From positions 68,022,472-68,086,471 of the forward strand of contig NC_060257.1 of NCBI RefSeq assembly GCF_921293095.1: DNA of 64,000 bases, in the 5' to 3' direction. This DNA comes from Ischnura elegans. Lineage: Eukaryota; Arthropoda; Insecta; Odonata; Coenagrionidae. The notes under the pieces are model-generated. The model made no database searches and was not told where the DNA came from. It saw only the letters and a list, made by a program, of their open reading frames with translations. Position numbers and translations under genes: made by a program. Positions 10,200-42,603 of this stretch are shown one piece after another. Position 1 is the stretch's first letter, and each line of letters opens with the position of its first letter.

Positions 10200-10425
10200 A
10201 TGGACGGGTCAGTAAGCAGTGAAGTCGGCCGCAGCCATGACATTTATGATCTTGACGGGAAAAATGTCGCTCTCATCTATCTGATGAAACCCCACGAGGA
10301 AACATCAGCGGTGGATATAGAGAATGACATTGGAGAACTAACAAGTGAATTGAAGAAAAGGGGATTTGAAGTTAAACGCAAAGATTATTTGGATGTCTCT
10401 GACCTCAAGGAGCACTTGAAACACG
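10200..10425 (+). CDS. Caspase gene exon 1: start of pseudocaspase large subunit
   Basis: Encodes residues 1-75 plus one base (phase 1). The ATG at 10200 is the first in frame: a TAA lies at 10179-10181, and an acceptor (pyrimidine tract then CAG, ending 10167) shows that the exon starts in the 5' UTR, so at least one upstream non-coding exon is expected. The peptide contains NVALIYLM (first core beta strand) and GELTSELKKRGFEV, which match the first strand and helix of caspase large subunits. The Arg that normally opens the substrate pocket before this helix is not present; the stretch reads HEETSAVD. Donor is G|GTAATG. Reading through the donor gives an artificial 124-residue ORF, which I reject. 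Confidence 0.85.
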
Positions 10426-13400
10426 GTAATGGATGCTTCGATACACAATTTTCTGTAAAGGATAACATCTCATTATTCTCTAATATTAAAAGTATGGGTA
10501 AGGAATCAAGCAATATTAACATGAAACCATGTTTTTTTCCCATAATATTTTTCGCCAACTTACCGTTTGCATGACTTTATCGTTGCTATATCAAGTGCCA
10601 ACTTTGTGCAATTCAACAGCACTATCTTTATGCGTAGTTTTCCGCGGCGTTGTCTAGATGATGTCTCCATGTTTCTGGGTTTCACCGCGTTTATTTTCTT
10701 TTTGACAACAGTTTCTCCGGTATTCCAACCGGCGTCTTCAGGTCGATGTCGGGATTCAATTTTTGGTGACTTATATAGTTCATTTTTGGCGCCAATTTTT
10801 CATGCTGGATGCTGATTGGTCCACCTTCTTTTTCTCTCGTATGACCCTCTTCCACGAGCTGTGGAGAGGGTAGCCGTCTTCTCTATTCATGTTTTCCGGG
10901 AGAAAGACTACATAGGAGAGACGTGTAGATCAATGAAAGTGCGCATCCAAGAACACAGAAGAGCCACAAGAATTAAGCAATTTCAGCTCTCCGCCATTGC
11001 GGAGCATGCATGGAGCGAACCCGGACACCAGATACTGTTTGACGATGCAACAGTTGTGGCAAAAGAAAATAGATATTATCCCAGGCTAATAAAGGAGGCT
11101 ATCGAAATATTCAAGACACCGGAAAATATGAATAGAGAAGACGGCTACCCTCTCCACAGCTCGTGGAAGAGGGTCATACGAGAGAAAAGAAGGTGGACCA
11201 ATCAGCATCCAGCATAAAAAATTGGCGCCAAAAATGAACTATATAAGTCACCAAAAATTGAATCCCGACGTCGACCTGAAGACGCCGGTTGGAATACCGG
11301 AGAAACTGTTGTCAAAAAGAAAATCCACGCGGTGAAACCCAGAAACATGGAGACATCAGCACTATCTTAATTTCTCTACCTTCATTTTGCAGTGTGTCGC
11401 ATCAACTTACTTAGCTGTCGGCGTAGTTATACGGTTAACACTGTAGTCGGAAGATAACTTATCGCAGTCGTATACATATACCTTTAGATCAAGGAATAGG
11501 ATAACATTTCCTATAGCTACTGCTTCCCACCGGTAAAAAAATGGACACTGTCATTTTTACAATCAAATTATCCATTTTTTTGCCGCACTAATTGCGTCAT
11601 CGAATATCCCATCACAGGTGAAAGACATTCAGTTGGTAGAATTCAAACATTACTCTTACTTTCCAGTAACACACACCCAAACTCTTTCTCTTATAGTACC
11701 CCAATTATGAATGCAAATATTTGGGCACACATTAGCGTCATTAAAAGGCAAAGATTAAAACCTCATGTACAGATGTACTCACTAAAGAAAAACATTTCCA
11801 GTTTTTAAAATTAAGCGTGTTCCTAAAAAAATGACATATCTCAGTGCACCTAGACAAAAATGTACTCTATTTACTCACTTTGGGCTAGGGGTTGCGTCAG
11901 AATGGTGGCCCTCTCGATATGATTGCGTTACGACAACAACTGTTCTCGAAGGGTTTTATGTTAAGAAGTTAGCGAAGTGTCGGAAGGCGAAAAAATACGG
12001 GTCTCTTTATTTTAAAACTCTATCACAATTGATAATAAAACCAATTTGATATACCAGGCCATTGCTTGATCGTCATCTAAGTTGTGTGTCTTATTGCATC
12101 TATGTTTAAGACTTTTTCCCGCTCCTAAAATAAATTTAGTAAGACGGAAGTGCAAAAATGAATAGTCTAGTTAAGGAAAGCTTTTGATGCATAGTATAAC
12201 TGGTGAAGATATTTTATTCATGTTATTCAGCAATGCTTTTGATCCATCATTCAATTACTCAGTTTTTTATGGTTTCATTGTCTCTTGCAACCGATTATGT
12301 CGGAATTTTTGAGAAAAGCTGTAACGAAATGGAAAAATAACGTCTGGTGCTTACTGATGAAATTAATTATAATCAATTCTGAATAAAAATTTAACTACCA
12401 ATCCCTACCGCAAAGTAATATCTCAAAAAAATCATTCCTCAAGTGTATCTTACATTTCTAGTCTAGAAAATCGTGAGTGTAACATCCGAGCAATATGTGT
12501 CTGAAATTTCGGCTATAAAGTTCTTTTTCAGAATATCAGTTTTTTCGTTTTTTTTCCCAAATTTCGTTTTGAGATCTCCATTCACACTATTTTGTTCTTA
12601 AATATATTTTGCAAATAAGCAGCATTTTGGTGTCTCATCTCTAAAAATCCATTTTCTCGGTTTCAACAATCTGATACATAGGATGGGGAGATTTGGCTTT
12701 TTATATCGTTTTTATGAAGTCGCTAATGTTGTCTGTAATCTTGTCCGGGTCAAATTTTCCGATTCAATTTTAACCTTTTTTTCCAATTACCTATCAAGCT
12801 GAAATTTTTAGGATAACACAGAACCTGGTGGCAATGCAATATCCTAATACTTTTATTGTGATTTTAACTTTATCTCGAATGTTATTCAGGATTTCAAATT
12901 AGATATGGGAATTAGTTTGAAACATCGCCACCAAAATGAGAATGATAGAGAAACATATCAACACATTTGTTTACTTCAAAGTTCATTGAATAATTGATTG
13001 GACAAAAATTTACTTGTATGCTTTTTATAGCACGACAATAACTTTGCTTTTTTATTGTTATTTATTTGTATTATTATTTTTGATTTATTCTATATTTTTA
13101 TTTGTAGATATTAATTGACTCTATTTTGCAGATATTAAAATAAAATTATGATTTAATGAAAACAAATGAAAATCAAGTTCACAAAAAGAATATTAAACTA
13201 TTGACCGGGATACGGCTTAGCGGACTGGTATTCTGGCGTTAGATTTTATGGATGAAATTTCACATACGATTGCATGGCTCAGGTTTCACACATACCTACG
13301 ATTTTGTGGAATAAGAATTCAAGATACGCCGGAATGGAATTATTTTTTGAAATACTACTTTGCGGCTAGGGGCGGTCATTATTATGAAAGCTTATGATTC

Positions 13401-16400
13401 TTATTTTTGTTTATTTTTAGTGACGTTATTATTTTTCTTACAAAGAATGACGGAGGCGTCAGCAGATCTGCTTGAAATCTAGAAAAATGCATATTTCAAT
13501 CATTGCAGGGCCGCCGAAATCACTGAAGAACACTTGGAAATAAGCTGTTATATTCTACAAATTCAGTTTATTATATTTACAGTTGCAACAGAAGTTGGTA
13601 ATTTGACCTGTTTATGGGTTTTCGTATTCACGACCCGTGACATCGACAATGAGTGCATCCAGTGTCTTTCGGGGGTTATTGAGCTCAAACAATTATGGCA
13701 CCCATTCACTGCAGAAAACTGTACAAGATTATTTGGTGCGCCTAAGTTGTTCTTCGTAGAGGTGAGTATTAAGTGACTTCCGGACACCCTTTAGCAACTT
13801 TTAGTGGTAATGAGATGACGAAGATCATACATAATTTATAAATTCACCGTTCAAAAATCACTCATGGCAGAAACGTTTCTAACTTGAATTTACTTGGAAA
13901 AACATATGGCGATTTCTATGGAAACCGGCGACTTCAGACTTTACCAGTCGATTGGACTTGAGGCGATTAAAATGTACTTTGAATCAGCCTAAGTTACCCA
14001 TTTGATATCTCTTTGTGCAAGGGAAGCTTCTCTTTTTTTCGCGCATTAACTGATTCACATGTCAATGTTTCCCATTTGTATTTTGCCATCATTACGGCAA
14101 TTTTCAAGGCAAGGTTTTCTTAAACCCGTCCGATATAGTGCAATTAATTGGCCAAAAAATTGAATATTGAACCTCAATATCGGACTTTATGCTGTACATG
14201 ACAAGCACCGATATTGGGGCCAGTATCGGAGAAGGGACTAACGAATTTATCATCGTAAACCGTCGTTATTGCTTCCTTCCGTCGATAATTCTGTGCAAAT
14301 TCAACGTCAACGGGATGTGTTGCCAAGAGCCAGTTTTGGCCGTTAGGGCGCGATTTAGCTAATTTCTGATTGGAGATTGGACGGATGAGAATGAAGCTTG
14401 CTCTAAATACCAATTTTTCGTGAGAAATTATCAGAGAGATTGTGGGATTGAGATAGAATTGAAAATTGTAATGGCGCGGTAATTGTAATAGATTGTGCAT
14501 AAAAGGGTATTACCTTAAGTACGTGTAACCTCAAGATCTCGTTCAAGTTTAACTAGGCGATAGGAAATGGATACTCTAGAGGCGTAGTTTTTGTTTTTCA
14601 GCCGCCAACGCGCAATACTTTTTTCCATATTTGCGACGGGAAGCATCGGGGAACCGCCTACGTTTATATGCAACCCACATGACAAATATATACCGTCATT
14701 GGTCTTCGTCCTAAAAAGAGTATGAAGGCTGTTTTACACGGAGCACGTCATTGTGCAGGTTGGCATTGAAAATTTGTTGAAATTGCGAGAATGTGCTCAT
14801 GGAATTAGAGCAGGGGCTATTTTGCCGTCTCGCATCCACGCATTCTCGCATGTGATCTAACAATGTACCGCTTTACGCGACGCAATTTTGATTGCACCTT
14901 CGCAAATACGTCAGGTTGCGAATTGACGTGCCACGTGTAAAACGGCCTTAGGGATCTATTGTTGTACCGTATAAATAAAGACGTTTTTTGTGGTACTTTC
15001 CATTGCTAATGTCTCGAAAAGAATTGAGTGTTGGCGGCTGAGACAAAAACTAAACCTCATGAGTATCCATTTCCTATCGCCTAGCAAAATTTGAACGAGA
15101 TTGAGGGAAATTCCTTGTTAGATAGGCTTAGAGCTGGTCTACAAAGGAACATAAGCAGGCACAAGCCGTAAGGCAGAGGATATAAAATGTAAGAAAAAAT
15201 TTCAAAAATAAGGCGCAGACGGAAACAGCTGAGTTCCGGTATCACATACTGGCACTTGGAACCTTGTAGGTACATATATTCGGATATAATAATAATAGTT
15301 CAAGAGCAATTCACAATCACTAAAATAGAAACACATAAAAAAAAGAAACACTAAAATGGGAAAAACATATTTTGGAGCTTTCGAAGTTGTAGCTTCTTTC
15401 TCAACATCTGAGGAACAAATGGGGAGCTGGAAAAGGAGTATGTTGGACAAGGGAAAGGGGAGAGACAGCATTATCAGGCGACGTTCAACCCAGTGAGGCT
15501 ATTTGCTTGTAGATGGCAAATGCACGCCAATTCCAGGGTGTGGATGTTGAGGGCAGAGTCAGTGGGAGGGGGAGAATGCTGCAATAACTACTACTTTGAA
15601 CCAATTATTGAAGAATACAAGATACAAGAATCGCCATGAGAAAAAATTTCCCTGGACCGGGAATCGAACCATGGACCTTTGGCTTTCCAGGGCTCTCAAC
15701 CACTTGTTGGAAGTCCTTTCTCCCTCGCATTGCCATCCTTGATGGACCGCAAGGGCCTAACACAAAAACGAAAAAATGCATAACTCGCAGGATACTCGCA
15801 GAACAAAGAATTCATCTTTATGACGGCTTCCGCGGGTTGATGCAATTGAAAATTCAGCTCTTCCGGGCTCTACTCCGCATCAGTCCATATTTTTTTCTGA
15901 CCATAAGTACCATGAGCCTCGGTTAATTGCCATGGGAATTAAAGAACCTGGATAGCGTAGTGGTCTGCTCAGTGGCCCGGAAACCCAAAGGTCCGTTTTT
16001 GATTCCCGGTCAAGGGGAATTTTTACATACGGCAATTCTTGCATATTTCACCACTGTTCACGTGGCAGGATTAGAAATATTACACATACCACTTTGCGTG
16101 GCTTTAGTGCAGGTTTGAGGCTCTCAACCGGTTGTGGCTTTTTGGAAGTCCTTTCTCCCTCACATTGCCATCCTTGATGGACCCCGAGAACCTAACACCT
16201 AGTACCATGAGCCTCGGTATAATTGCCATGGGATTTAAAGAACCTGAATAGTGTAGTGGTCTGCACAGTGGCCCGGAAACCCAAAGGTCTGTGGTTTGAT
16301 TTCCGGTCAAGGGGAATTTTTTCATGTGGCAATTCTTGCATATTTCACCGCCATTCACGCGGCAGGGTTAGAAATATTGCACAATTATTGACAAGCGAGC

Positions 16401-19400
16401 CGTGGGAGAATGTGAGAGGACTGTGAGTGATGCGTATGGGGAGGATGGACAGCAGGAGGCACGGTGATTATTTATTCTGAGCTGAAGGGGGGTGGTGCAT
16501 TGGCCTACGTAGAAAGTGGGGCAGAAGTTGCAATGAAGAAGGTAAATGAGGTTGGTGGAGGGAAATATCGGGAGGCATTTAAGTTTGGGAAGAAAAGAGG
16601 CTGGGAGTGCATGTATTTGAAGGATTGGGGTGTCTCGATACTCACAACATTTGACACTACATATAATATATTCTTCTGGGGAACACCAGTGAGTAGACCA
16701 TGTGATGTATATAAAGTGCTAAGTGTTCAATGTTTTGTTTACAGGCATTGTAATAATACTTGCAGCCCCTATTGACAATACCAAGTCAGCTTGGGCCAAT
16801 ATGGATAATCATTAGACCGTGGAAGTATGCAAGCATGTGTAGTCTGCTCCTGTAGTAAAAAACTGTTTTATGTGTGGAAAATTAACACCAGGCTCAGAAT
16901 AAAATTTAGTGAGTTGCGGACACTCTGTAGCTACCTACTTTTAGTGGTGATGAGATGATGAAGATCATAAATTCACCATTCAAACATTCCTTTTGGCAGA
17001 AAATGTTATACATAACTTGAATTTGTTAGAAAAAAAAAGAGCAATCTCCATGCATACCAGCTATAATGACGTTAGACTTTACCAGTCAATTGGATGTGGG
17101 ATGAATAAAATGTAATTTGAATCAGCTCTTGTAACCCATTTTCTATCTCTTTGTATACGGGAAGCTTCTCTTATTTTCATGCATTACTGATTAACATATC
17201 AATGTTTCCCATTTGTATTTTAGCATCATCAAGGCAATATGCGGTCGATATATAGAATTACAATCTAAGAAATACATAATTAGCATAATGAAGGAATGAC
17301 CAACAAATATGCTTATGAGTTAATACATAAATTAGTGCATAAACATTATCTTGGCAATTTTTTGCATAGTTTATTGATTGTTTTTTCATCTTTTAAATTT
17401 TTGATTCTTTAATCATAGTGATGTATTTTCATGGTAACTGGCCCTGATAATGCAAAAAATACAGTTTCGAAAAATAAGCAAAAATATAAGCAAATTAAAA
17501 AAGAGTAGATTGACTTTTCTCCAATGACAGCAAGACATACATATATTTTTTCTGTATCCATTTTTATTTAATTTTTGTATCTGAACTCACTCCACAATAT
17601 TCTTTAGCCAGCAGTGAACCAAAAAAATTCCTTTTTAATTCTTTTAGACGATCACAGAAGAAGAAGATACAGAAATTTCATTGATGAACAAACTAAGTGG
17701 GGAACTCAAGAAAGATATTGTTGTCAAAACCTTACCAGCATCGGTGGATATTATGTTGGCATTATTTAAAAGACATGGTATGTGATCTGTTTTTTTTCCA
17801 TCAATGCCTTTATGCAATACATATTTAATTTTTAATGCATAAATGTGCTAACTAACACATCAAAATGGCCAGATGTTTTATAGTGTATTGATTTTCTGGA
17901 AAAAGCGCACTACCGTCACAAATAAAATAGAAACGCCTTACGTGTCATTTTGATGGAAGTTGGTCATTTAAGGTAGGCAGATGGTTTGACTCCATCTCTA
18001 TGTGTAATACTTATATTATATTTTAACAGAATATGTACCATAAGATAAATAAAAGTCTGAAAATATTAAGACGACATAAAAACATTTCTAGGTAATATGG
18101 TTAAGTAAGTAGAGGTTACCCATCAAAATTATGTGTATGGTCCTTCTGGTATTACATCAAGCAAAATACAGAGACCTTTCTTGCTAAAAAATAAAATAAC
18201 CTCCGACACATTCATAACTTCCGATTCCATTATTAAGTAACTTCTACCACTAAATGTATCCAGTTTTTAAATTCGTGGTTACAGTTAATGGACAATCACA
18301 CACTGAACAGGAGGTGATGTTTAATGCGTAGGTTAGTCAGACTAGAATGATGGTGAACTTTGGGTACATTCAAGCCTGGATGTAAAATAGTTATGAAGTC
18401 TGGCATCTTATTGAATTCAAAAGAATTTCAATCTTTTCTCTCCTGTAGGTATGAGTGTTGCGGTGGTGAATTATGAGTGTTTTCCCAGATGATCGCTTCT
18501 GTTGTGTTTAGAGCAGAAATAATCTTTTTCTGTTATAATAAAGCGAGTATGTATACATAAATAAAAGAGGATGTCTGTTTGTCTGCCCGCTATGCATTTC
18601 TATAGGGCTGTGCAGATTGCAACCAAAGTTAGTACATAAGTGCATCTCATGCTCCCAAAGCCTGTAGTGCAACTTCTGGTTGTATTTGATGCGTTCTTTC
18701 TGTTGTATTCTCATTACTGTTTGTTATGTCACATCATTGCTGGAAGGTTTTTTGGATGAGAAAGTGAAAGAAAGGTGCCATTTCGCACTCGTCCGACCGC
18801 ACCTTGAATATGGGATCCTGTGCAGAAAGACTTAATCCACAAACTGAATAAAATACGAAGGAAGGCTGCATGGTTCGTCAAAAACTACTATGGGCATACA
18901 GGCAGTGTTATCCAAATGTTAACCAAATAAGGCTGGGAGCCGCTGGAGACTCGGAGGCTGCGCGCTAGGCTTAGCTTGTTTGAACAATTGAGAATGGACA
19001 TCTTTAAGAGAGACATGGAGAACATAATTAGAGCTCCACTATATTTCCAGGTCAAACAAAGCGATAAATTGAGAGAGATATTTTGCAGAACAGATAGATA
19101 TGTGAATTCTTTTTTCCCTCGAACTATGAAAGGACTTTAATAAATGCCAGTGGTAATTTTTTTGGAGCATTTCCTTTTTATGTGTAAATGGCTGGTGTCC
19201 TAACACATGCCCCCTTCCACATCCCTTTTAGGTGGATTGCATGGTAGTATGTAGATGTAGATCATACAACTTCCGTAGTTGGACATCCTGCCGGGTAGGC
19301 GCACCTCTTGACACGCTCAAATGGAAAATTCAACACTTACAGTCCAGCAGTGGCGGCGCGTGCGTACACGCACGTTAGCAAGTGCACACCCAAACATGAA

Positions 19401-22400
19401 TGAATTATAAAAGAAAACTATTCCTTTGCAACGAGAAGGATAAAAATCCTGTCTAGATATGCAAGAAACATGAAGCTCCGAACGCTACAGCTATAGCCTT
19501 TTCGAATTCACCACTCTACAAGTGTGCGATCCCGTGGCATCGTGCCGGTCGCATATTAGGTTTATGCAATCGCTTGTGGGTGCTCTGGCGGGACGAAGTA
19601 AGCGGGGGGGTATGCACTGTTCAAATGGGTGATGGGAGCAGACTCAAAACGATGCGAGTGCGCACGCGCATATTTTTGGTGAGTGAGTTGCAGGTAGCGT
19701 AGCGGTGTAGCCGCCACCTACACTACGTGCGCCCAGGATCCTAGTCCATCTACAGAGTCATCTATATGGCCGTTTTCTACACTACTTTCTCATAGGGTGT
19801 AAGGAAAGGAGAATGAATTTCACCTACCGTCAGTTGTAAAGGTGTGTTTAGAATAATTATTTTCATGCATGCTAAAATTATTTCTGTTCATGCAATTTTA
19901 AGGGTAGAATATACCAGTGATATGTTTTGCTTGCTATGTATTCTATTACGACGAAATATGATGCTCATGGATTAGTATTAACATAATATAATTAAATCAT
20001 CCTATATCTGCTCTAATGCACACCCTAGATAAATTACCACCAGCCGCCACTGCAGTCCAGCCGGCAAGAGTTGTCCGTTGGCACTTTAAAAGTAGGGGGC
20101 GAGAACCCTACGCCAACATGGTTTGCAACCAATCCCTGCCCTCCAAATGCACCTCACATCCTTGCCTAGTCATACAATGTTGTCACATGCATATGAAGCA
20201 CTGAAACAAGCCTGAACCACCAAAACAAGCCCTCTCTGCGAATCGCCAAAACAAAGGATTCTTCCTTTGGGTCCTTCGTGCTTGTCGTCCCTTCTGGCTG
20301 CTTTCTTCACGGAACCCTTTTGTTTACATCTTACATGGGCGTTTCCCTTTCTTACCTGGCAACCTTGCCCCCTACCCCTGCTAGCTGTCAACGGACAACT
20401 CTTGGCGGCCAGGCTGTAACCACATATTAATCCTCTTGTTGCAAACCTTTTTGCTGGGGTGTGCGTTCACACTACCTTTGTGGACTATGCACGTAGGAAC
20501 ACATAATGAACAATGTTGTGGATGTTACATATACGTACCATCGTCATACCTGCTTCGTTCCTTTACCTAAAAATCCTGCCATGCGGCAATGAATTCCAAA
20601 TTTCTAATTTCCCACTTCTCTGGGTACTGTCCTTTCCAAGTAAGTCCCGGTGGCCTGCTAGGATGACTTAGAATATAGTAGTATGGGTAGAAGGAAATAC
20701 TCTGCCATGTAAACTAAATTAGGTAAATCAAAAAGGAAAAACTACCTGGTTTTCATTACAGGGTAGTTTAAGACTATTGGGTATTGCAACAGCCCTATGC
20801 GCATTGAATGTCATGGCACCATTGCTTTCTTGAAAGTTATAAATATGGATCATTTGATAGAAAAGGAGTGATCACGCAGAGAAATAAAAACACGTCTGTT
20901 CTCTTTGAGAGTAGAAGAATCACTCGTTTATTCACCAACCCAGGGGTAGGTGGCATAGGGAGAGGAGGAGTCTGGGGAATCTGAACCCCCCATAAAATAT
21001 GTATACACAATTAATTTGCTTCTTAAAAGAAAACAAAATAATGAAAAATCATGAATTTCCAAAAGATTTCTTTGAAAAATGGAGTTTTTTTCGATTTTGA
21101 AAAGTATTTAAATTAGTTTAAAACCCTCTTCATAGTACCCTGTTTTTCAAAAACTTCCCCCCTAGTTTATGGACCAGCCCCCCTCCCCAACTCTCCCCCA
21201 AATGCATTTCTGGGCTACCCTACTGCCAGGGGTCTCCAAACTTTTCAATTCAAGAGCCACTTTGTATATTTCCCACATTTATGTGGGCCAAAGGAATAAA
21301 TAAATAAAAAACAAATCAGTGCCAGTAATTTTATTTCCTCACAAATTTGAGTATAAACGTTGAAAAATTTAAATTTCTGGAACAAATCAGGGTAAAATAA
21401 GTATATTCCTGCCTTTATTTTTATGCAACTACATTAGTTTGACGAATTATAGTTAAGTTTTGACTTCAAAATTTTATTAGAATCAGGTTCCAGATTAGAT
21501 GAGCAAATTTTAACCAACACACAGAGATTTGTTTCCAGGTGAAATTATGTGTCTGGTCAGATGTAGCCCGCTGGCCATAGTTTGAAGAACCCATACTAAC
21601 ATATATGCCAACCATATCTAGTATACTCTAGCTCATGCTCTAGCATGCATTAATAGGTCATTAAAAAAAGAATCATGATACTGAATCAAAAAAATGCAAG
21701 AAAAAATGACAATGTAAACAAATGTGGTAAACTTCGATGGTATGAGCAGAAAGCTAATGATTTTCTTTCTTTTCAGGAAAGGACTTAAACAAATCTATGG
21801 CATATTTAATTGCCAAGGAGCTGGAGAGCAAACCAGGTCCTCAAAATATCTTCTCGATCATGAGTTCCCTTTGTGGAAGACGCGTGACATATGCTCCAAG
21901 ATTCACAACCACTATCTGCAAGCAGTTGTATCTGTAAGCAAAATTCTCATCTGTTCATCTCTGAAAGTATTTCAAAAACGTCTACCTCAAATGACAACAA
22001 GAGTTTATCAATGGCAACAAGTCCATTTAGCATGCTTTCTAAAAAATATGCCTCAAAGTTAAGTCGAAGGCACTGGTTTAAGGCATCAATCATGGCTACT
22101 CTGAAGGCACCTTTAATTGGTACCTTTAACTGGTACCTTTAAGGTGCCTTTGAGTAACATTTTTTCAAGACTCAAGCACTCCTTCAACGCATGTGAAATA
22201 TCAACATCGTTAGTCAACAATCCTTAGATTGGTTTGACGCAGCTCTCCATTTCTCCCTCCTATTCGCTAACCTTTTTATAGCGACGTATTTCTTCTCTTC
22301 TACATCCTTTATAACCTGTCCTATGTAACTCATTCGGGGTTGTCCCTTGACCTTCTTCCCTTCCACCTGTCCTTCTACAATGGTCTTCATCAGGCCATCA

Positions 22401-25400
22401 TGCCTCATAATGAGGCCAACTAAGTTCTTCCCCGTCTTCTGCTTAAGGTCGTTTCCAGCATTATTCTTAGCACCTTCTCGTTACTTACATGGTCGATCCA
22501 TTTTATCTTCATCATTCTATGGTAGCACCACATTTCGAATGCTTCCAATCTAGACATCTCCGCTGCTGTCAACGTCCAAGCCTCGCTTCCACAGAGAAAC
22601 ATACTCCTTATGTATCACATGATGAATAAACTCCTTACTTCTATGCTTGTATTCTCAGCTGTAAGAAGATTCTTCCTTTTGTAGAAAGATCTCTTTGCCT
22701 GATTGATTCTACTGACTATGTCTTTCTTGCTTTGTCCATCATTGGTAATTCGACTTCCAAGGTAAGAAAACTCATTCACCTCTTCAAGCATATGCTTCCA
22801 TATAGGTTATTGTTTGTCTTAGCTTCTGCTCTGTTGCTGTATCTTAGTCATCTTTTTGTTGATACATATTCAGCTGATACTTGGCCATTGTCCTTTCCAT
22901 ATTTGTCAAAGTTTTCTTTGAATACTCTGTCTCAGCTATGAGTGCTATGTTGTCAGCAAATAGCAGCATACTGATTTTCTCTCCATGGATATCAACACCC
23001 GAAGCCTTCCCCTTGATTTTATTGTTGGCTTTCTTGATGTAAATATTCAAAATTATGGAGAAAGTGTACAGTGTACACCCTTGTCTCACCCCTTTTCCTA
23101 TTCTTGGTTCTGCACAGTTCGGACCACATTTGATCACAGTTACTTGGTTTTTATACAAACTATGAACAATTCTACAATCGTTGTGGAGCACTTCGATTTC
23201 TTTCAGAATTCTAAGCATTTAATTCCATTCCACATTATCAAATGCCTTCTCTTAATTGACAAAAGCTATGTAATTGGTTTTTTTCTCTTGCACTCTCTTT
23301 TCTATGAGCAGCCTAAGAGCCAAAATTACTTCTCTTGTGCCCATGCTTTTGCTAACTACAAATTGGTCCTCATCCAGGAATTCTTCTGCTCTTTTTTCTA
23401 TACTTCTGCAAATAACTCTTGTCAGAATCTTCAATGCATGTGTCGCCAGGCTTATGGTCCTAAAATCTTCTCACTTCTCTGCTCTCTTCTTTTTGCGTAT
23501 GGGAATGATGATGTTCTTCTCAAAGTCACAAGATAAATCTCCTGTTGCATACATATCGCAGATAGTGTTACACAGCTGAGTTAAGAGCTTTTCTCCTGCA
23601 TTTTTGATTAGGTCTGCTGGAATGTCATATATTCTTGGGGCCTTATTCTTTCACAGGTCTCTTATTGCAGTGTCAAATTCTGATCTTAACCCTTTCGAGA
23701 CCGCGGAGTTTTCGTCTTAGCTTGACTGCTGTACCGAGCCCCAAGAGACTCTTCTTTCTCGTGGTACGGAGCATTTTTGGAGGGCATTCGTTAAGAAGGG
23801 TCTCGCTGAGCCTTTTTCGACCCCTCCACGGTGGGACTCCGCATTATCTCGGACTCCGAGAGTAGTTGTGCTCCCTCCTTTCCGGGTTTACGACCATACC
23901 TGCGGCATTGTTTCGCGGACAACTTATGTATTGCTTATATGTATTTAGCAAATGGATAATTGTTGCTTGCACGTAAATTACAGACATAGAATATAATTCC
24001 TCATTTTTATCTGAGCATTGTCAAATTTTAAACGAAGTTCTAAGGCCATTATCAAAGCATTTAACGCAGCAACAATTTCCATGTTCATGTTTATACATAA
24101 CTCGAGATATAAGTTAATATTTGTCGTAGAATTTTGTTTAAAAATTCTAAACGCTGCTCAAAAGACAAACAATTCAATTCTTAGTTTATATTTCTTGAGA
24201 AATTAACAAATATTTATTTCGAAAATTGACTCTATAAACAATTGTATGACCGCTGTCCCTTACCGCTGAGAGGGGTTATAAAAGACGAAGGGTCCGGGTA
24301 CCTGCTCCCGGATTCGGAGGGTTAATCCTAAACCCCGAAGCGTTGGGTCCCGAGACAAAGGCGACCTAAACCCACGACCGTCCTGAAAGGGGGAGAGCTA
24401 GAAAACGTATATATACGGGTTTCGTTTTCTTGACCGGGAAAATCTCACACGTATATATACGCCCGTGGTCTCCCGGGTCAGGAAACGTCCACACGTATAT
24501 ATACGTGTACGGTAGGGAAAAGGTTAAGATGATCGCTCCCACGTGTGCTTTTCTACTTCAATGTGCAATAGGCTACCCAAAAAGAAAAAAATCCTCATGA
24601 GGGCAATTAACAAATCCTAGAGCTGACATTGGTATAAATTGGCATTCTATCACTTGATATGAAAATAATCTTTAAATTATTTTGAAGTTAAGTCCTAATA
24701 CATTTCAAAATTTCTTATCATATTTTCCTGTATTATTTTAAAATTATTAAAATATTGTAAAATTGGATTCCAAAATGAGCATAATTTAAAGTTGGCATGT
24801 TGCAGATTGCACACCCTAATTCGCTTGTTGAAGTCTTACGTAAATATGTATGTATATGAAAATAAGGTTAACACCAAGAGGGTAAAAATGTTGTGATACT
24901 TCTATATTCAAAAATCATTTTCCTACATAATTTGCTACATACTTGGGATTTATATATGCATCAATATGGAACCTATCACAAAAAAAGGCGTACACAACAC
25001 CCATTTTTTAGTCGACATTGTTATTTATGGTGTTATAAACTTTTTCAGGCCAAAACAAATGGTTAGTAGCGATCCAGCAATGACAGTTGCAGTTGAAACC
25101 TCTTTGGAGCAGTATGCTATGTCTGGAAAGCGGGTGGCATATTCATTTATTTTCAGAGATTTTCTGCATGATTTTAAAGATGATCCGCTGAGGGGATCAT
25201 ATAAAGACAAGATAACAATAGAGAAAGCAATGAAATCAATGAATTTTGAATATGAAGACTGCAACAAAAATTGGAAATTAACTGCAGATGAAATGAAAGC
25301 AAAACTAAAAGAGAGTATGTATTTCCTTATATCATTGCTGAGAGCTCAGGGATGAGGAATACCAAGTACCCCAATCTTTGATATTTGATCGCAATTCAGT

Positions 25401-28400: not shown

Positions 28401-31400
28401 ATTTAGCGAGTTTTTAGAAGGGCTGAACAACTGATAACAGATTTTCCCGTAAATAGAAAAAAATTAATAACTGCAAGCAACCAGCTAGTGAAGATATAAA
28501 GCATAGTACAAGTACTCTATCCATGCGGCGGAAAGAAAAAAAAATAACGTCAGGGTGGAACCGAACGTGCGACCCTCGGAACCGAAGTGCTACTCGCTAA
28601 CTACTACACCACGGCAGTTGTTAAGAATGGGTGGCGTAGTTACTAACTAAATATCCAATTATGTAAAAAAACTTGTTTGGCATGTGCATGGAAAACTGAA
28701 TTTATTCAAGGTCCATACATTTTAACATTTATGAATTTTAAATTATGGTTTGATAACCCGACGACTACAATACGTATATTAGATGTTCCTTCCAGCATTT
28801 TTATATTATTCTACGTTGGTATTCTTGTGAAATTGTGTTTTTCTTACGACCTTCGTTAAGCTATCAGTTCATAAATGTGAATGATTTTCAAATTATGGCG
28901 GTATGATGTTATTTCTCCTCATAATATAGAAGCGCCAATAATAAAAACATTTTTTTAATGCATAAAGGCCTTAATTAACACTCTGTAACGATGGGATAAT
29001 AACAGCATCTACGGAAGTGCTGAAAGTTTGGCATCCATTTTGCCATTACTCTGGATGTTTGTCGCCCTGGCCGTAAGAAACCCATAACAAGCTTACTTGA
29101 GAAGCGACTTCCTTATTTCTTCCTTTCACCTTATCTCAATGACTTATAATGTGCTAGCTGGGAAGCATACCAATGGATTCACGTTTTCCCTAGTTAATTT
29201 ATATTTAAAAGTAGTCATATGATCTTTTCTCATATTTCTCATTCTTCTTAAGAGAAAGGCTATTAATTTTGTAAAATGAAAGCATATCCCCAAAATATAT
29301 GATTTCTCAAAGGACAATGTCAAATCTGTGCTAGCTGGGACCTCGACATAATTGGTAAATGAAAAAATTTAAAACTTATGTCTGGAACCTAGCAGAGAAG
29401 CCAAACTTTCATTTGCATTCAGAATACAGAATTAGTACTAAAATTACAGACTTCACAGAATTCAAATTGAAAGGCCTTGAGCTCCTATTCAGATCTTACA
29501 AAAAGATATATTTTTGCATGACTTTTAAACTTGACTTCTTCTTTTCTCCTTTCAGAAAGTGGTTAATTGTGCAGAGTTGGTTTCCTGAATTCAGGTTTCT
29601 TCTTGTGCAATGGGTTACAACGCTTGTTCCATGCTAACATTTTTTTCTATTTTCCAACTCAAACCATTGTTTGTACTTGATTTATCTTTGTGCCATTTTT
29701 TAAAACTAAGTTTCACCTACTGTTTGCTGGCCCTTAATGCTTGTTAGCAATATTCATGGCCACACTTGTTATTTGTGTGTATTATTTTATTTTTCTCTTT
29801 GAATAAATGTTTTATTATCTGTATGTTCTGGTTTCCTTATATTTATTCATCCGTTTGATCCATATTGATATTAAGTGGATGTGGGTCAGAAAATCAATAT
29901 GTATAATTCGTGTACGAGGGCCTGCAGATACATATGTATATTACATGTAAGGATATTCAGATTTCCAATTTGTAATACGCATGTATACATACATCCTGAG
30001 GGACTTTTGAGCCACTTTTACGTGAAATATACAGACGTAATACGATTGTATTCCTTTGTCCCAGATAGCACAAAGTAAGTGAGTTAACCGTTTCTTATGG
30101 TTTTCTTACGGAAAAAATTGATAAGCAGCTTATCGTAAGCTAAGGGACTTATATAAGGCAAGGGTAAGACGTTAGGGACGTTTAGGTAAGGAATGCCGTC
30201 AAATATCCTCAGGCAATGTAAGTCACTTCTGTTGGAGCGCCAAAGGCGGCTGAACAGCGTACTACACATGCTACGCGGCTCATCTTGACATGAATTTAAA
30301 GGCTATTGGGGAAATTTAGCGAGTTTTTATAAGGGCTGAACAACTGATAACAGATTTTCCTGTAAATAGAAAAAAAATAATAATTGCAAGCAACCGGCTA
30401 GTGAAGATATAAAGCATAGTACAGGTACTGTATCCAAGCGGCGGAAAGAAAAAAAAATAATATCAGGGTAAATCCGAACGTGCGACCTTCGGAACCGAAG
30501 TACTATACGCTAACCACTACACCACGTCAGTTGTTCAGAAGAAGAGGCGTAGTTACTAATTAAATATCCAATTATGTAAAAAAAAACTTGTTTGGCATGT
30601 GCATGAAAAACTGAATTTATTCAAGGTCCATACATTTTAACATTTATGAATTTTAAATTATGGTTTGATAACCCGATGACTACAATACGTATATTAGATG
30701 TTCCTTCCGGCATTTTTATATTATTCTACGTTGGTATTCTTGTGAAATTGTGTTTTTCTTACGACCTTCGTTAAGCTATCAGTTCATAAATGTGAATGAT
30801 TTTCAAATTATGGCGGTATGATGTTATTTCTCCTCATAATATAGAAGCGCCAATAATAAAAACATTGTTTTAATGCATAAAGGCCTTAATAAACACTCTG
30901 TAACGATGGGATAATAACAGCATCTACGGAAGTGCTGAAAGTTTGGCATCCATTTTGCCATTACTCTGGATGTTTGTCTCCCTGGCCGTAAGAAACCCAT
31001 AACAAGCTTACTTGAGAAGCGACTTCCTTATTTCTTCCTTTCACCTTATCTCAATGACTTATAATGTGCTAGCTGGGGTATACATATGTATAAATCATGT
31101 ATGGGTATTCAGATTTCCAATTTGTAATACGCACGAATACATACATCTATAGGGACTTTTGAACCACTTCTACGTGAAATATACCGATGTAATACGATCG
31201 TATTCCATCTTATACATATGTATTTGGGCACGTATTTTTTGTGTATTATTGATGTAATACAAATGCCGTGTTATCTGGGTAACCCTATCTTCGTGAGTCC
31301 ATGATCAACTTATTGCACCACCAGTGTTTTTTGAAACCAAATATGTATTGGTTTTAATTTTCAATAATTTACTCTTCTGTAAGTATAACCATAGAGTAAG

Positions 31401-34400
31401 TATATTCATAGTTATATGCAAGCAAATTCAAAAAATAGCAAAAAATTGTTCCTTGCCATCTCATTAATTGTTCCAGAACTACATCAAAAACGTATACAAT
31501 TTTTGTACGTGCAGTGAGCCCTCTACATATACTTACTCTATGGTATATAGCTAACATTTTTTTAAGCATTGTGGAATTTTAAATTGATTTATAGCATTGA
31601 TAATAGCAAATTTTGAAAACACAGGGTACTATTAAGATTAACTCCAGAATTTGGTTAATGGTAATACTAAAATTTCATTTGAAAATTGCTTACGCACATG
31701 AAAAACAAATGATTAATTTCAAAATATAAAAATTGGAGAATGCAACAAAATATTTCTTTCCAAAAACCATTGACAGTATATATAACCACTTCACAATGGA
31801 CTCCTGCAGAAAGGAGGATCACAAATGAGTGAGAGGGTTGGGCTTAATTGTCAAGGAGAGGCTCCAAGGTCTCACTTAGCTGGGTCTCAGACAGGGCCTG
31901 AATACATTCAACCATTGCTACCTCAGTGGTAACTTCCCTTCTCCCGTGCCAGCTGTAGCTGACATCTGGTCCTTTGCACTGAAAAATCCACACCAGCTAT
32001 ACCTGACATTCAACGCAAAAGGGTTAATAGATTTTTATTTGTAGGCTTAAATTCACAGTGTAAAGGTAGAAATATCTACTTTAGGAGTTAGTATTTTTAG
32101 AAAGTATTTTGAAAATTCAATTATATTTTGCATTGAAGGTACAACTTTTTAAGAGCTGTTTATACTTTGTATTTTTTTTGGGCCAAAGATGGCTGCTGCA
32201 GCAGTTCCTCATATGCTTGGCATCCCATTTTTATTGCATTTTCTTTTCTGTGAAAACCCAATAGTTAGCCAGTTTTCACTCATTTCAAACATGTGATTCT
32301 ATTACCCCTTCCACCAACAGCTTCCCATAAACTATTTATGTCATTTTTTTCTGTGTTCTATTTTGAGTTTTGTGCTTTCCTACTCACCATGATGTGGCTT
32401 CCCCTTCATCCCCTCCATCTTGCAGCAATCCCCTTGGCCCTGCCGGTGGGACTCATGTGCCCCTACAGAAAACATTTACATTCCTAGAGAGTGACTTCTC
32501 AAGTAAAAATTTCTCCCTTGAAACTTGACTGAAACTGGGCTGAAACAACCTTGAAATGAATGAAACTCCCTTGGATAGCTACACTGAAACTCCCTTGGCT
32601 ACTAACTAGACTGAAACTCCCTTGGTTACCAGCTAGACTGAAACTCCCTTAGCCAGCTAGACTGAAACTCCCTTGTATGCCAGGCTGAAACTCCCTTGTT
32701 TGGTTGAATACAATTCCCCTACCCAATCCATTAAAATTCCCTTGTCAAATCATATGAAACACATTAAATTAACTACTTGCGCAACCCAGCCAACAGTGGA
32801 TGATCACATAACAGGTTTCTCCCACAATTTTGCATGCATGATAAAAGATAAAGGGTGGACAGGTGATTGCGATCAACAATAGTTATAACTGCAATGACCA
32901 CAACATTTTTCAAGACACAATTTATTAGAACATGAAAATACATCAATAAATTAATAACTTTTAAAAGCACATACAAAAATATTCTAAATGAAAGAAGTCA
33001 TGGAAGTTAGATGCTCCTGCAATAGAGAAGAAACATGACTGATTAGAGTCACAAACGACTGAACTCAAAATCAAATTAGCAAAATTGCACATGAAAAAAA
33101 CTCTCCTTTACTTGGCTTATTAGTTATATGGTGCATTAATGTGAAGCATTCAAATTATAGAAAGCAAAACTGAAATTATAACTGAGGAAGCATGCACTTT
33201 GCATCATAGGTCAATGATAAACGAAGCTATGGCTTGTTACTTAGGTTATGTGTGAAATCCAAACGAAAACCATGCAAGCTTCCAAAACTATCGGTAGTAA
33301 CTAATAAGTATAAGTAGTAAATATACATTGCACTATGGCGATACCCACCAGCATTCCTTATTTCTTCGAAAGCCTGCTCGAGCTCACTGAGTCCGTTAGT
33401 CCTCCGTAGGATGACTAACGAACGGCGCGGCATCCGCGGCATTGATGACCGGTCGGTGTATTCTCCTCCTCGTCGGGGGTATCCATGAGGCAGGAAAACT
33501 GGACGGCAGTCGCCAAGGCGTTGAAAGAAGAATTCATTATTGGCTGCATGACCCCCGAAAAAGGAGCTCGAAATCCTTAAACCTGCCTGGATTAAAACAC
33601 GAATTCAATGCCAATGTTCTCATGGCTAAACATATGGAAGAAATAAACATGCCATCAGAGAAGTTAAAACGCTTACCTCCAATTTTGACTGCAGTCACCA
33701 CCACCGACCTCGTTCTCCCCTTCACCTTAATTTCGATTAATTCTTGCCATTAACAACCGTCGAAGTACCGGGAAAATATTTATGTCATCAATCTTTTCAT
33801 GCCAAAACCCACGCTCACCACTCGTCTTTCGCTCCAAAGCAACTTGAGAGAAATAAAGGCAACCGACAGCTTGACATGCAGGAAAAGATATACGTGTTGC
33901 CAAAAGTTAAATTTAAAAAAATACATTGCCGCTGAAAACAGGGGTCGCGTATGTGTCCGGTAGATGGGTTCCGTATGTTGGCAAAACTTACGATGGGTAG
34001 CACACGTGCAGCAAGGGAAAAGCAGTTCAAATTCATGAGGGAGAGGGGATACCCAAATGCTGCAGCAGCTCTGTGGCAGGGCAGTAAAGACATGCGGCAA
34101 GAGAGATGCAGTGGTGTCATAAATTCGGCCTGGCCTGAGCCTTTTGTCCAGTTCAGTATCAGTGGGGCACTCATGCAGCAAGGGAGAAGCAGTTCAAATG
34201 CAATGGACTTGCAAGGGAGAATGGCATCAGAGTTTCAGTTGAGTGCTCTTTTTCTTGTTGAGGAGAAGGCAGTGCAGTGCAGTTACAAGGTTGTTTCAAG
34301 GCAGTTTTCACACATTCAGTGGAGTTTCAGCCCAGAATCAGCTCTGTTTCAAGGGAAAAATTTTTACTTAGGTTTGGTAATTTCTCTGTCTCATTCCATA

Positions 34401-37400
34401 ATGGAAACGCCTAGCTCACCCATCTTGCTGGTGATGTGATTTTTAATCTGGGTCTGGCACTTCATAAATTTCATTTTAACTTTTACTACCAAAATATGAG
34501 GAGCATTCACAACAAGTTATCTTTCATGAATATTAATCATATATTTCATAAAAAATATCTTTTATAAATTATCTTTGATAACCCCCCCCCCCAGAGCTCA
34601 GAGAATTTTTTAAGTTTAATCCATTTCACTTAATTGGATTAATATTACTTATAGAATAGTGTAAAGATTAATAAAATATCCCTCAAAAGGCCATAAAGCC
34701 TGAAATCATTGGTTACAAAATGATATTATATTTTGTTTATAAGTTAATTAGCTGGAGGCAAAATTATCCATCTTATGTGTACCTTAGCCATATGTGTATT
34801 TGGCATTTGTATGTCTATTTTCAGTTGCTGAAAATAAAGAGAATGCTGACTGTGTGATGATATTTGTCTCAACGCATGGATCAACTCGTAACGGCATCGA
34901 AATATACTATGCATATGAAGGTTGTTTGCCATTGTCTGAGATTGTGCGGCCATTCAAGGAATCCAAGGGTTTCAGGGGGAAGCCAAAGATCTTCATTGTA
35001 GATGTAAGTACAAAGAGATGAAAGATGAAAGTTTTTTTCAAATTTTCTGCTCCAGGAACAGCCATAAAATTGCTAATGATTCATTTTGGTTAGCTCTTCA
35101 CTCAATAGAAGTTGATCATATAAGTTTTCCATGAATACTCACTTAACATATTGTGGTGATAATGATATAAATTGTAATGCAAAACGCATCAATGATTTCT
35201 ACCGCAGCACCTATTACCTATCTCAGAAACTCTTATGTATAATGGTGTGAGTAAGATCTGAAGATACTTATCCTCAAAAGTGAATTGGATAACTCCTTGG
35301 CATCATCAAATGCTATACTACAGAGTCTCCAAATTGGTATATTGATTCATTGTTACTACATTGTGATAAGAAATGTGAAGACAATGAAAATACATATGTA
35401 GTTGGTATTAGAAATTCATGGAAAATCATTGTTTCTGGAAAGTCGTAAAGAGGTTTGGATAATTCGATACTTTAACTCACTTCAAAGACATACATGAAGG
35501 TAAATTCGACCATGTTTATTTGGATGCCAAGTGATGCAGATGTGTCTATCAATGTACCATGGTCTCTTGTGGGAATGAGTTGCTGTTCTGTGAGGATCTC
35601 CTCATGGTACCATCCTGGCACTTATAGACTCAGTGTACCCTGGTGACATCGATAGGGTCATCAGTCAGGTGGCTTTGGTGGTAATACTTGAAACTAAAAG
35701 CTCTGCCACATCATGTAATATCAATCAAGTTGTGATTAAATAATCTGGAAACGCCATATTATGGGTAGGTGCAATACAGTGAGTCCTCGTTTAACGTCAC
35801 TTACCGTTCCTGAAAAATGTGACGATAAACGAAATGACGTTAATCGAAGCACAATATCCCATAAGAAACAATGTAAAAAGTGAATATCGGCTCCAAGACC
35901 TCACAATTCCTACGCGAAAAAAATTTAGCATATCATATTTGGGCCATTTTTTACGATGGGAATGCCAAACTATGGCATAAATACGAGTCCCTGTCTTCAT
36001 CGACGGCAATACCAGTAGCGACGTACATCCTTCTCCATTTTTGTATCTTCCCGCATATTTGTTTTTTCGGCTTAGCTATGGTGGTCACCCGGTCGAGCGT
36101 CGCCTGGGCATAATCATCGCTGAAACATCGTCGCAGTTACAGGAGCCAAAATTATTGAGAACACGGCGAAAAAGTGACGACAAATACTCAAGAGTTCTAC
36201 TCGCAAAAATTCCTAGAAATCACTTTTCAGGTTCCAGAAAACCGTTATGTCAAGTAAAATTTGCTAAAACTTTACTTGACATTTACGCATTTAACATTTG
36301 CGCACCTACCTAAGAATTCATTTTGCAGAAAATTTGCTATAAACGTAATCGAAATTGACAATAAACACACCGTTTTACACTTCGTTTAGACTGACTGTAT
36401 TACCGCCCACAAAACGAACAACCTACAACGCCCGCCGCTTCGCATTTTTTCTCGCGCGAAATTTAAAAGATCTGACCAACCTGACGTTATCGCGAAGCAA
36501 AGGTGCGATAAACGAATCACGGTCTCAAAATTTTCGTGACGTTATCGCGAAATGACGTTAAACGGGGTGACGTAGAACGAGGACTCACTGTATATAGATA
36601 CTATACTCCCATTCTCTTACATGTAATGCATGCCTTTAGTATTTTCTACCACTGGATAATTGTGCCTACAGATAACACTCTTACTTTGTGCTATCTGGGT
36701 AATATGCATGAAGAGAAAACCAATTTTAGTAAAAATATTAATTATTTCAGGCTTGTCGAGGTTCATGTAAAGAGAAAGTTGCAAAAAAAGCAGTACTACA
36801 TTGCAAAGCAAACTGTTTTGGAACAATGAATTCAGAGAAGAGGGAACCTGAAAAGTCTGACATCAAGTCAAAAAATGCAGTTTCCTGTATGCAATACAAT
36901 ATGGAGGTGCTTGAAGAGATTCCAAATGGTTCAGATATATTAATTGGACAAGCAACACTAAGGAGTGAGTCTACGCAAAAGTCATCAGTTTATGTAATTT
37001 TTACAAGGGGCTCTTTTTACCAAATTTATGCAGTACAAAAAATGTGAAGACCTGCAGATATTGCCTTCCAGCAAGAATAGAACAATTTTGGTTTTTATTC
37101 AAATGAAATAATATATTATTTCTGAAATTTGCCTCAACCCAATTCATAATGCTTTTTTGTATCTAAATTATATATTTTTGTTCATAAATAAAATGTCATG
37201 TCACAAGTATCACTTTTATGTCTGCATCTCTTAAGAGAAGTGATATAATTTAGGATATATAAATCGTGTATCACCAAATAGTTAGTATTGACTCTTATGG
37301 TATTATCAATGTTTTGGTCAAAGCAGGCATTCCCCCATTCCTGCCACACTGCGCTCAACGCTCGGAGCCAGTGGTGTCCCCTAAAGTATATTTACAGCCT

Positions 37401-40400
37401 CCTAGGGTACAGTACATTGCCATCTATGTGTACTGGATAGAGAACACTGCCATCGATGTGTCAGCATGGACAACACACCAGTGGCAACTGGTGGTAATTT
37501 ATGTAGGGTGTGCATTAGAGCAGATATAGGATGATTTAATTATATTATGTATGTTAATCCTAATCCATGAGCATCATATTTCGTCGTAATAGAATACATA
37601 GCAAGCAAAACATATCACTGGTACATTCCACCCTTAAAATTGCATGAACAGAAATAATATTAGCATGCATGAAAGTAATTATTCTAAACACACCTTTACA
37701 AGTGATGGTCGATGAAATTCATTCTCCTTTCCTTACACCCTATGAGGAAGTAGTGTAGAAAATGGCCATACAGATGACTCTGTTGCAGACGGACTAGGAT
37801 CCTGGGCGCAGGTAGTTTAGGTGGCGGCCAAGGTGATAAATGGTGATACATAAATCACCTTGGGTGGCGGCTACACCGCTACACTACCAGGGAGTCACTC
37901 ACCAAATATATGCGTGCGCGCACTCGCATCATTTTGAGCCTGCTCCCATCACCCATTTGAACAGCACATACCCCCCCGCTTACTTCGTCCCGCGCGAGCA
38001 CCCTCAAGCGAACTCATAAACCGAAAATGCGACCGGTGCGATGCCACGGGATCGCACACTTTTAGAGCGGTGAATTCGAAAAGGATATAGCTGTAGCGTT
38101 CGGAGCTTCATGATTCTTGCATATGTAAACAGAATTTTTATCCTTCTCGTTGCAAAGGAATAGTTTTCTTTTATAATTCATTCATCTTTGGGTGTGCACT
38201 TGCTAACATGCGTATATGCACGCGCCTCCACTGCAACACAGACATCCCCATTACCAGTATCAATGAAAAACACCACACTCTTAGTGATCCCCTACTTTGC
38301 CTTTTTATCATTTTGAGGTAGGCAATGACCCAGACAGCATAACTGCTTGTACACAAATAGTACCTAAATCCCTTGCACAGTTACAAGTAGTATTAATAAG
38401 CCATTCTATGACAGTTGTATTCCAAAATCTCCAAACAAATCAATTGCAATACAAAACAAAAATACCTACTAGCAAAATCCAACTTTTCAAACCATTATGG
38501 AATTTCACAGCTTATAAAATTTAATAATGCATTAAGGTTCATTATCCATTATTTAGTGTATTCTTTCCATGAAATCGGGCAGAAATAAAAAAAAAATAGC
38601 CTTTTCGAATGACCCTTTCAAAAAAAATCAAGTTCTCTTTTATCTTCTGACATCTTTATTTTATTTTTATTTAATCTCATCACACAGAGTATGTCATAAA
38701 TAAATCAACCAATGAAAACGTAGAATTTTATAACAGCAAAAACAGACTTTGGTTCAGGTACTCTTGGCTCTTTTTATTACACTTTTCATACACGCTTCAA
38801 GATAAATGCGAGCATTGAGGGGGCCCCCTAAGGTCAGGGCCCTCGGCGATCGCCGACCAGCCGACCTGGTCAGACCGCCCCTGCGAGGGACTACCACCTG
38901 TTCCTATGGATAAAGACGTGGCTCGCTACACAGAGATCTGACACTGACAATGAACTGCATGCTGGTTACATACATATATACATAAACCAGTAGTTGAACT
39001 CGTAGGTGGCAGATTTCTACAGAGAGAGCATTGAACAGCTTTTACCACATCATGATTAACCCTTTCACTGCTGTGGACGTACCTAGTACGTCCGCACGGC
39101 AGACTGCGGTGGACGTACTTTTTCTTCCTCCTCGCCATGCGGTCAGCACTTTCGCCGAAGCACTTCGAAGGGACCCACTAATCAAGGACCCTTTCCTCGA
39201 CGAACTCACCCACGCAGGACCGTCTCATCGGCCCTACCAGCGGGGGCCCTACCTCCGGAAAAGTGACCGCTCTGACTGCAATTTGAAAATCAATCAATCA
39301 ATCCGATCATCACAATATGATTGTCTTCATCGCACTCCAGCCAATCAAGCAATCAAGTACGTCTTTGAAACGTGTTTCTGCGATGAAAAATAATGATTTT
39401 TTTAACTTTGATATAATGGCCGTTTTCCGGTGGTCCGCAGCCACGTTTTGTTGCAAAGTTAACAAAATCGTTATTTTTTATCGCAGAGACACGGTTCAAA
39501 GACGTACTTGATTGCTTGATTGGCAGGAGTGCGATGAAAACAATCATATTGTGATGATCGGATTGATTGATTGATTTTCAAATTGCAGTCAGAGCGGTCA
39601 TTTTCCGGAGGTAGGGCCCCCGCTGGTAGGGCCGATGAGACAGTCCTGCATGGGTGAGTACTTCGAGGATAGGGTCAGGGATTAGCGACCCTTCGGAGGG
39701 TGTACCACACCCATCCTGGAAGTACCTGCTCTATGGGCCCAGGAAACGCATTTTAACATTTTCGCCGCATGTGAGGAGAAGGTTTCCGGAGATTGAACAG
39801 CAGTGAAAGGGTTAATGCCTAAATTTAAATGGTGATTATGGATAAAAATAGCCTAAGAATTAAACTTCAAAATAATTGTTATTTTGACTTACAATTAGTT
39901 TATTTTTTATTTCAAAATCATCTGTCATTTTCTGGACAGCTCTCATAACTTGCCTTTTTTATTTTATTTTTTTCATTTATTAGTAAAAGTAGCATTTTTC
40001 ATGCAAGTAAAGACCGATACACTATTACTTTCAGATATGAAGGCTTTTCATCATTCAGAAAAGGGATCCTTCTACCTGCAGGCTTTCTGTAATAAATTGG
40101 TGAACCAAAGTTTTAGCTCCAACATACTTGATGTAATGGTCGCAACAAATGATAAAATTTCAAAATTTCCAGAAACTGAGGATTTTAAAAAGTGGATTGT
40201 AACGACAGTATTTACTTCAAGTTTTCGGAAGATATGTGCATTACTTAAGGCTGAAAGGTAGGTGATGCAATGTCATGCGGCTATATTCTGCGCTGGTATA
40301 TCATACTCCTCAAAAATGGCTGGGAAGAAAAACATGGTTAACTTCACTAAAGTTGGGAAAGCATGAAAAAGTGAAAAAGCAATAAATGCCTGTACATGTA

Positions 40401-42603: not shown

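Follow-up and report, generated by a model that had tools for sequence, protein, structure and literature searches.

A predicted tandem caspase with an inactive N-terminal domain and a splice donor that overlaps a would-be stop codon at three loci of one genome

On the forward strand of the window, by which we mean the whole 64,000-nucleotide stretch analysed (C12:68022472-68086471; the genome searched was its own, 1.72 Gb in 110 contigs), eight exons located between positions 10200 and 40261 join into a single frame of 525 aa, with GT/AG ends at all seven introns. Exon 1 (10200..10425) contributes the start codon and the N-terminal part of a first caspase domain (MDGSVSS...) in an open frame that ends at the donor ACACG|gtaatg; some 30 nt 5′ of the start codon there is a candidate acceptor, as there is in a paralog on the same contig, C12:78.2. 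Exon 2 (13583..13761) encodes the p20 core of domain 1, including the motif CLWVFVF and the sequence FVFTTRDID at the catalytic His-Gly site, while exon 3 (17648..17777) reads FFVE|TIT at the QAC site, where Ile137 replaces the Cys. The end of the small subunit is encoded by exon 4 (21777..21933), with APRFTTTICKQLYL as its final strand, and the donor that follows, CT|GTAAGC (21932..21939), overlaps an in-frame TAA (21935-21937). Exon 5 (25049..25314), entered through a phase-2 acceptor (|GCC), carries a linker (LPKQMVSSDPA...) and the N-terminal part of domain 2. The p20 core of this second domain, with STHG (His337) and FIVD, is located in exon 6 (34825..35003), its Cys381 (D|ACRG) and the inter-subunit linker in exon 7 (36751..36964), and its small subunit (AFHHSEKGSFYLQ), with a His at the site of the P1-binding Arg, in exon 8 (40035..40261), which ends in a TAG stop at 40259-40261.

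Two introns hold sequences of other kinds. In intron 1, inverted copies of one sequence flank a GIY-YIG-like open frame (10816-11214, YIGETCRSMKVRIQEH); by eye, the whole arrangement, at approximately 10560-11370, consists of transposon remains. Intron 5, which separates exons 5 and 6, contains two pairs of 300-nt direct copies (28147-28446/30060-30359 and 28665-28964/30580-30879); in each pair the copies are 99% identical and lie about 1.9 kb from one another, and a single recent duplication probably gave rise to both pairs.

A preliminary description of this DNA had proposed two caspase domains in the spliced product and a profile search for them. In that search, Peptidase_C14 (Pfam) matched two stretches of the one 525-aa frame (134.1 bits, E 8.1e-39). 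Taken singly, domain 2 scored 99.3 bits (E 3.4e-28) and domain 1 scored 38.9 bits (E 1e-9), both above the family cut-off of 21.4 bits, so the two-domain match is not due to chance. The residue numbers given in that description (Thr93-Arg94, Ile137, His337 and Cys381) also agree with the present frame. Apart from a C13 match under the cut-off (E up to 0.01), Pfam detected no domain besides Peptidase_C14 in the 525 aa, and Rfam at its gathering thresholds gave no match within the window. Domain 2 aligned to caspase-6 over residues 16-260 of a 291-aa query piece (E 4e-12). The best alignments of a three-sequence domain-1 profile were to PDB entries 1m72 (named Caspase-1, 3.1e-16) and 3sir (named Caspase, 3.5e-16), which we take to be Spodoptera caspase-1 and fly DrICE, respectively.

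Two observations indicate that the genome is that of an arthropod, probably an insect. For one of its ordinary caspases, 1m72 (6.2e-47), 2nn3 (2e-45) and 3sip, chains presumably of insect origin, outscored all vertebrate caspases. Additionally, two loci of bantam, a microRNA that marks insects and their kin, scored above the Rfam cut-off (C6:87820740-87820820 and C9:58405629-58405709), the former with a further match under the cut-off on the opposite strand.

The same order of the two domains, the dead one first, was found at two further loci. The first, C12:78.2 (C12:78.213-78.237 Mb, reverse strand), encodes 533 aa in eight exons with the intron phases of the window gene; at the second, C6:104.9 (C6:104.882-104.897 Mb), exons 2 to 8 were read as 459 aa in one open frame. 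Identities to the window gene are 39% and 37% for domain 1 and 42% and 38% for domain 2, respectively. A DNA pattern for CLWVFVF, a motif present at all three tandem loci, matched nine places: the three loci themselves and, elsewhere, a sequence present in six identical copies that is probably a repeat. Its reversed control matched one place. Using the whole C12:78.2 protein as query, both domains were found at no place beyond the three loci, a count that is a lower bound. Exons 2-8 are free of stops and frameshifts at the three loci, as is exon 1 wherever it was read (the window and C12:78.2). Because three loci, spread over two contigs, agree in exon order and intron phases, it is very improbable that exons of unrelated caspase copies were misjoined by the assembly or the gene model, an artefact that the 9510-base, repeat-containing intron between exons 5 and 6 might otherwise have suggested.

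Domain 1 lacks the catalytic His-Gly at all three loci. At the Cys site there is an Ile in the window (VE|TIT), an Asp in C12:78.2 (Q|ADI) and a Glu in C6:104.9 (Q|AET). In the window, the Gln that precedes the active-site Cys position is also changed, to Glu, a substitution that the preliminary description does not mention. Its designation of domain 1 as a pseudocaspase is borne out, since His, Gly and Cys are all replaced. Elsewhere in the genome, a caspase-like exon at C6:26855489-26855668 (reverse strand; L018) reads ITKGDQ at the THGE site and is probably another pseudocaspase, within the caspase-rich interval C6 26.85-27.09 Mb.

Whether the two domains belong to one gene or two depends on the junction between exons 4 and 5. 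Domain 1 has a normal caspase C-terminal strand followed by an in-frame stop of its own, and for this reason the locus was initially read as two genes, a reading overturned by the paralogs. At all three loci, the would-be stop of domain 1 is the TAA inside CT|GTAAGC, the sequence in which this domain ends, and domain 2 is preceded by a phase-2 acceptor (|GCC). The first six intron bases (+1 to +6) are invariant across the loci (6/6), compared with 3/54 at positions +7 to +60; fourfold sites are alike in all three loci in 16 of 47 cases. On the forward strand of the window, 57 of 1557 TAA trinucleotides lie within GTAAG, and 9 of 1557 within GTAAGC. Overlap with GTAAG is seen in 3/3 domain-1 stops and in 0/10 other caspase stops (Fisher P 0.0035; P 0.012 when restricted to TAA-ending stops, for which six of the ten were usable), in a small, hand-chosen sample that consists of seven caspase stops, left after five chance pattern matches and one match cut at the locus end were dropped, and the three domain-2 stops. 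These figures count against the alternative that a pseudocaspase gene and a neighbouring caspase gene were copied together and yield two proteins that, if active, would meet in trans, as in the mosquito pair CASPS18/CASPS19.

That alternative has in its favour, besides the domain-1 stop, an ATG at 25059 in exon 5 from which domain 2 of the window could start, and the existence on C11 of relatives that resemble domain 2 and have no detected domain 1. Given that stop, the frames of two co-duplicated genes would be open as well. The ATG has no in-frame counterpart in either tandem paralog: the first domain-2 exon of C6:104.9 has none before the first strand, and the earliest in C12:78.2 sits inside that strand (LMAYSF). 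The missing ATG alone proves little, because a C11 relative (one of four copies, the one whose first exon was read) is likewise phase-2 and ATG-less, which indicates that such first exons can have a different upstream exon. In tblastx comparisons among the three inter-domain stretches, no common first exon was found, although a very short one would escape; by eye, the few matches are shared transposon pieces and chance. Frames running from an ATG to a phase-2 donor do exist in these stretches (nine, two and four), so a first exon of domain 2 that is not conserved could be present. Considering the conserved donor and the comparison with other caspase stops, two separate genes seem distinctly unlikely, and a single fused transcript across both domains is, on this genomic evidence, very probable. 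Both domains in one chain, as first described, is thus the most likely arrangement, with domain order, frame-matched junction and stop-overlapping donor common to three loci.

The 3′ end of the gene differs from the one originally given, which placed it at 42603 and the product at 537 aa. The frame stops at 40259-40261, past the final caspase strand, and both tandem paralogs stop at the equivalent position of the fold. A further exon up to 42603, which apparently relied on a donor over the domain-2 stop, was rejected: this donor is not conserved in the paralogs, because the stop contexts of the three loci differ (AGGTAGGTG, CACTAAATG and TTGTAATGG). The context in C6:104.9 does read GTAATG, which is donor-like.

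Based on the Nei-Gojobori method and one pair of loci, the window and C12:78.2, the dN/dS of domain 1 is 0.52 (bootstrap 0.34-0.77; 220 codons) and that of domain 2 is 0.42 (bootstrap 0.25-0.61; 285 codons); dS is 1.05 and 1.28, respectively, values that point to an old split and make the ratios rough. At the codon level, this pairwise comparison shows both domains to be under purifying selection, and the dead domain has therefore apparently been kept. Within domain 1, the 14-residue stretch with the most invariant columns is the C-terminal strand, the element through which caspases pair: 8 of its 14 columns are invariant, compared with 31 of the other 135 (P 0.01 for a stretch picked after the fact). 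Lying where the small subunit ends, this stretch would correspond to beta-6.

In domain 2 of the window, STHG and ACRG align with caspase-6, so that the catalytic His-Gly and Cys are present. Among the four domain-2 relatives compared (the window, C12:78.2, C6:104.9 and C11:55.8), His-Gly is found in all and Cys in three, C6:104.9 reading DAGLG, with Gly for Cys. All four have Asp in place of the Gln before Ala-Cys (DACRG in the window, a change that the preliminary description likewise leaves unmentioned). As a control, we considered the four other caspase genes of the genome in which both sides of the active-site intron were read: three have Q|ACRG (C10:18.3, C6:27.09 and C10:25.6) and one has N|ACKG (C5:53.8). 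The latter active site was observed at C5:53.76-53.77 Mb (L026, L027) in a caspase with SYRH in the P1 loop. A search of the open-licence PMC literature for DACRG together with caspase returned no paper.

According to the passages available from two MALT1 papers, the residues that form the P1-Asp pocket are Arg64, Gln161 and Arg207 in caspase-3 numbering (PMC4357240, PMC4626109). Compared with caspase-6, the window retains the first Arg, has Asp for the Gln, and has His for the second Arg. In the other three relatives, the first Arg is retained in none, and the second site holds Gln, Arg or a Pro/Thr stretch, so that each pocket arginine is kept in one relative of four; these assignments are by alignment and less sure. 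By its predicted residues, domain 2 is without the full P1-Asp pocket of an Asp-specific caspase, two of the three residues being changed. Of the live domain 2 envisaged in the preliminary description, His337 and Cys381 stand, while the altered P1-Asp residues and the missing Cys of C6:104.9 qualify the claim.

The Gly for Cys in C6:104.9 in particular counts against a conserved protease role of domain 2. Together with the Gln-to-Asp change in all four relatives and the scattered loss of the pocket arginines, it would fit a family in which protease function is fading in both domains, leaving a non-catalytic scaffold or an incipient pseudogene. Such a family would have to be reconciled with exons 2-8 that are free of stops and frameshifts at three loci (and exon 1 at two), with dN/dS ratios well below 1 in both domains, and with a dyad largely kept among the domain-2 relatives (His-Gly in 4/4, Cys in 3/4). 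We consider this decay a less likely account, though not a negligible one.

A second group of caspases related to domain 2 was observed at C11:55.61, 55.74, 55.82 and 83.10-83.11 Mb (L029, L034 and L035). The other copies are 50-69% identical to C11:55.82, exon by exon, and the fully read one has DACRG. Pattern and protein queries found no domain 1 in the neighbourhood of the group, 1.1 kb of upstream sequence having been read for one copy. In a tree of 13 partial sequences (p20 core plus a small-subunit piece) hand-picked from the loci read, the domain-1 rows and the domain-2 rows are each gathered on one side of a single branch, with supports of 100/99 and 97/97. Seven of the ten inner branches are open, and the tree leaves out caspase-like matches on C9, C8, C5:2.66, C3 and C16 as well as several C6 and C11 copies; the two domains are thus unplaced relative to other caspases.

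Our preferred explanation, which we hold to be probable on the strength of the predicted protein and its paralogs, is that the locus is one gene encoding a 525-aa tandem caspase, in which a dead N-terminal domain pairs in cis with a C-terminal domain that retains the dyad and has a changed P1 pocket. The built-in dead/live pair looks real at the sequence level, as two old relatives share the layout. The old stop of a first gene would have become a donor (CTG TAA GC to CT|GTAAGC) that connects, with the frame maintained, to the first p20 exon of a second gene, and this fusion would predate the copying of the tandem unit to three loci. The two domains may pair through their C-terminal strands, comparable to c-FLIP/caspase-8 and to the modelled coral caspase-X. 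The dead domain could then serve as a permanent partner that sets how active and how specific domain 2 is, by permitting or by restraining it, and with such a partner in cis, homodimerisation of domain 2 would be unnecessary. The preference of domain 2 for Asp at P1 may have been lost. A transcript left unspliced at CT|GTAAGC would end at the TAA and yield the dead domain alone. A more elaborate version, which we regard as doubtful, is that domain 2 has left P1-Asp specificity for a basic or other P1 residue by way of a paracaspase-like S1 Asp, that the joined dead caspase restrains or activates it, and that splicing at the stop-born donor continues to determine whether the dead domain by itself or the tandem protease is made.

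If the tandem protein is made as predicted, partner control could be tested in a single chain without mixing two proteins, and the S1 Asp would provide a natural test of the residues that set P1 specificity within a true caspase. Reusing a stop codon as a splice donor would be an uncomplicated way for two genes to fuse. Additionally, a dead/live fusion apparently independent of those in corals and mammals points to a fixed dead partner as a solution that has arisen repeatedly.

Vertebrates tune caspase-8 through dead/live pairing. c-FLIP and caspase-8 are a dead/live pair of caspase domains in two chains that carry death-effector domains. The predicted dead/live layout of the window gene is alike, but death-effector domains are a feature of those two chains, and Pfam detected none in the 525-aa product. 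The comparison with c-FLIP/caspase-8 has also been drawn for coral caspase-X (Acropora), which, in the passages available from that report, has a dead N-terminal and a live C-terminal caspase domain in one chain (PMC4715348). According to the same passages, the second domain is typical in all respects, the authors model the beta-6 strands as the interface of the dead and live domains, and the full-length protein killed fewer HeLa cells than the C-terminal domain alone, which suggests that the live domain is held back by the dead one (PMC4715348). The window gene resembles what is reported there in its N-terminal domain without His and Cys, its C-terminal domain with the dyad and its several copies per genome; it differs in its altered P1 pocket and its arthropod origin.

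In mammals, the available text on CASP16 presents a caspase-14-like protease, with a layout explained by exon duplication and a proposed contact between its two domains (PMC12198278). It shares with the window gene a dead, caspase-fold N-terminal prodomain and a dyad-bearing C-terminal domain in one chain, with corresponding exon sets; the window gene instead shows a stop apparently turned into a donor, and an Asp before Ala-Cys. Four caspases of the bivalve Mytilus coruscus have two CASc domains each, and share the two-domain layout to that extent, the passages available leaving the activity of either domain, and hence any dead/live state, unstated (PMC10967218). In Aedes aegypti, CASPS18/CASPS19 are a non-catalytic decoy and a live caspase, called Decay homologues (PMC4840389), and inactive dipteran caspase homologues are also named elsewhere (PMC3141678); as described there, these are two genes and two proteins, unlike the one predicted chain of the window.

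In the open-licence PMC literature, a search for two or tandem caspase domains returned reports from mussel, mammals and coral and none from insects, and a search for decoy or inactive caspases returned the mosquito decoys, as separate genes, and coral caspase-X. The preliminary description, which named no precedent from insects, agrees with that literature as far as insects are concerned; the layout itself is known from coral and mammals. The lineage of the window gene is apparently independent of both.

In MALT1, the S1 Asp stands two residues before the catalytic Cys. The cited passages equate Arg87, Gln184 and Arg233 of caspase-7 with Asp365, Asp462 and Glu500 of MALT1, which cuts after Arg and is acidic at all three S1 sites (PMC4357240, PMC4626109). 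Domain 2 has, like MALT1 as described there, an Asp at the S1 site where caspases have Gln; its other two sites are Arg and His, so that one site of three is acidic. From this correspondence and the residue changes, domain 2 would have one paracaspase-like acid in a partly lost Asp-binding pocket, and judged by its S1 sites it is not a member of the paracaspases/metacaspases (C14B). Compared with the tandem caspases of coral and mammals, what is new here is the presence of three old copies, the stop apparently turned donor and the altered S1 pocket.
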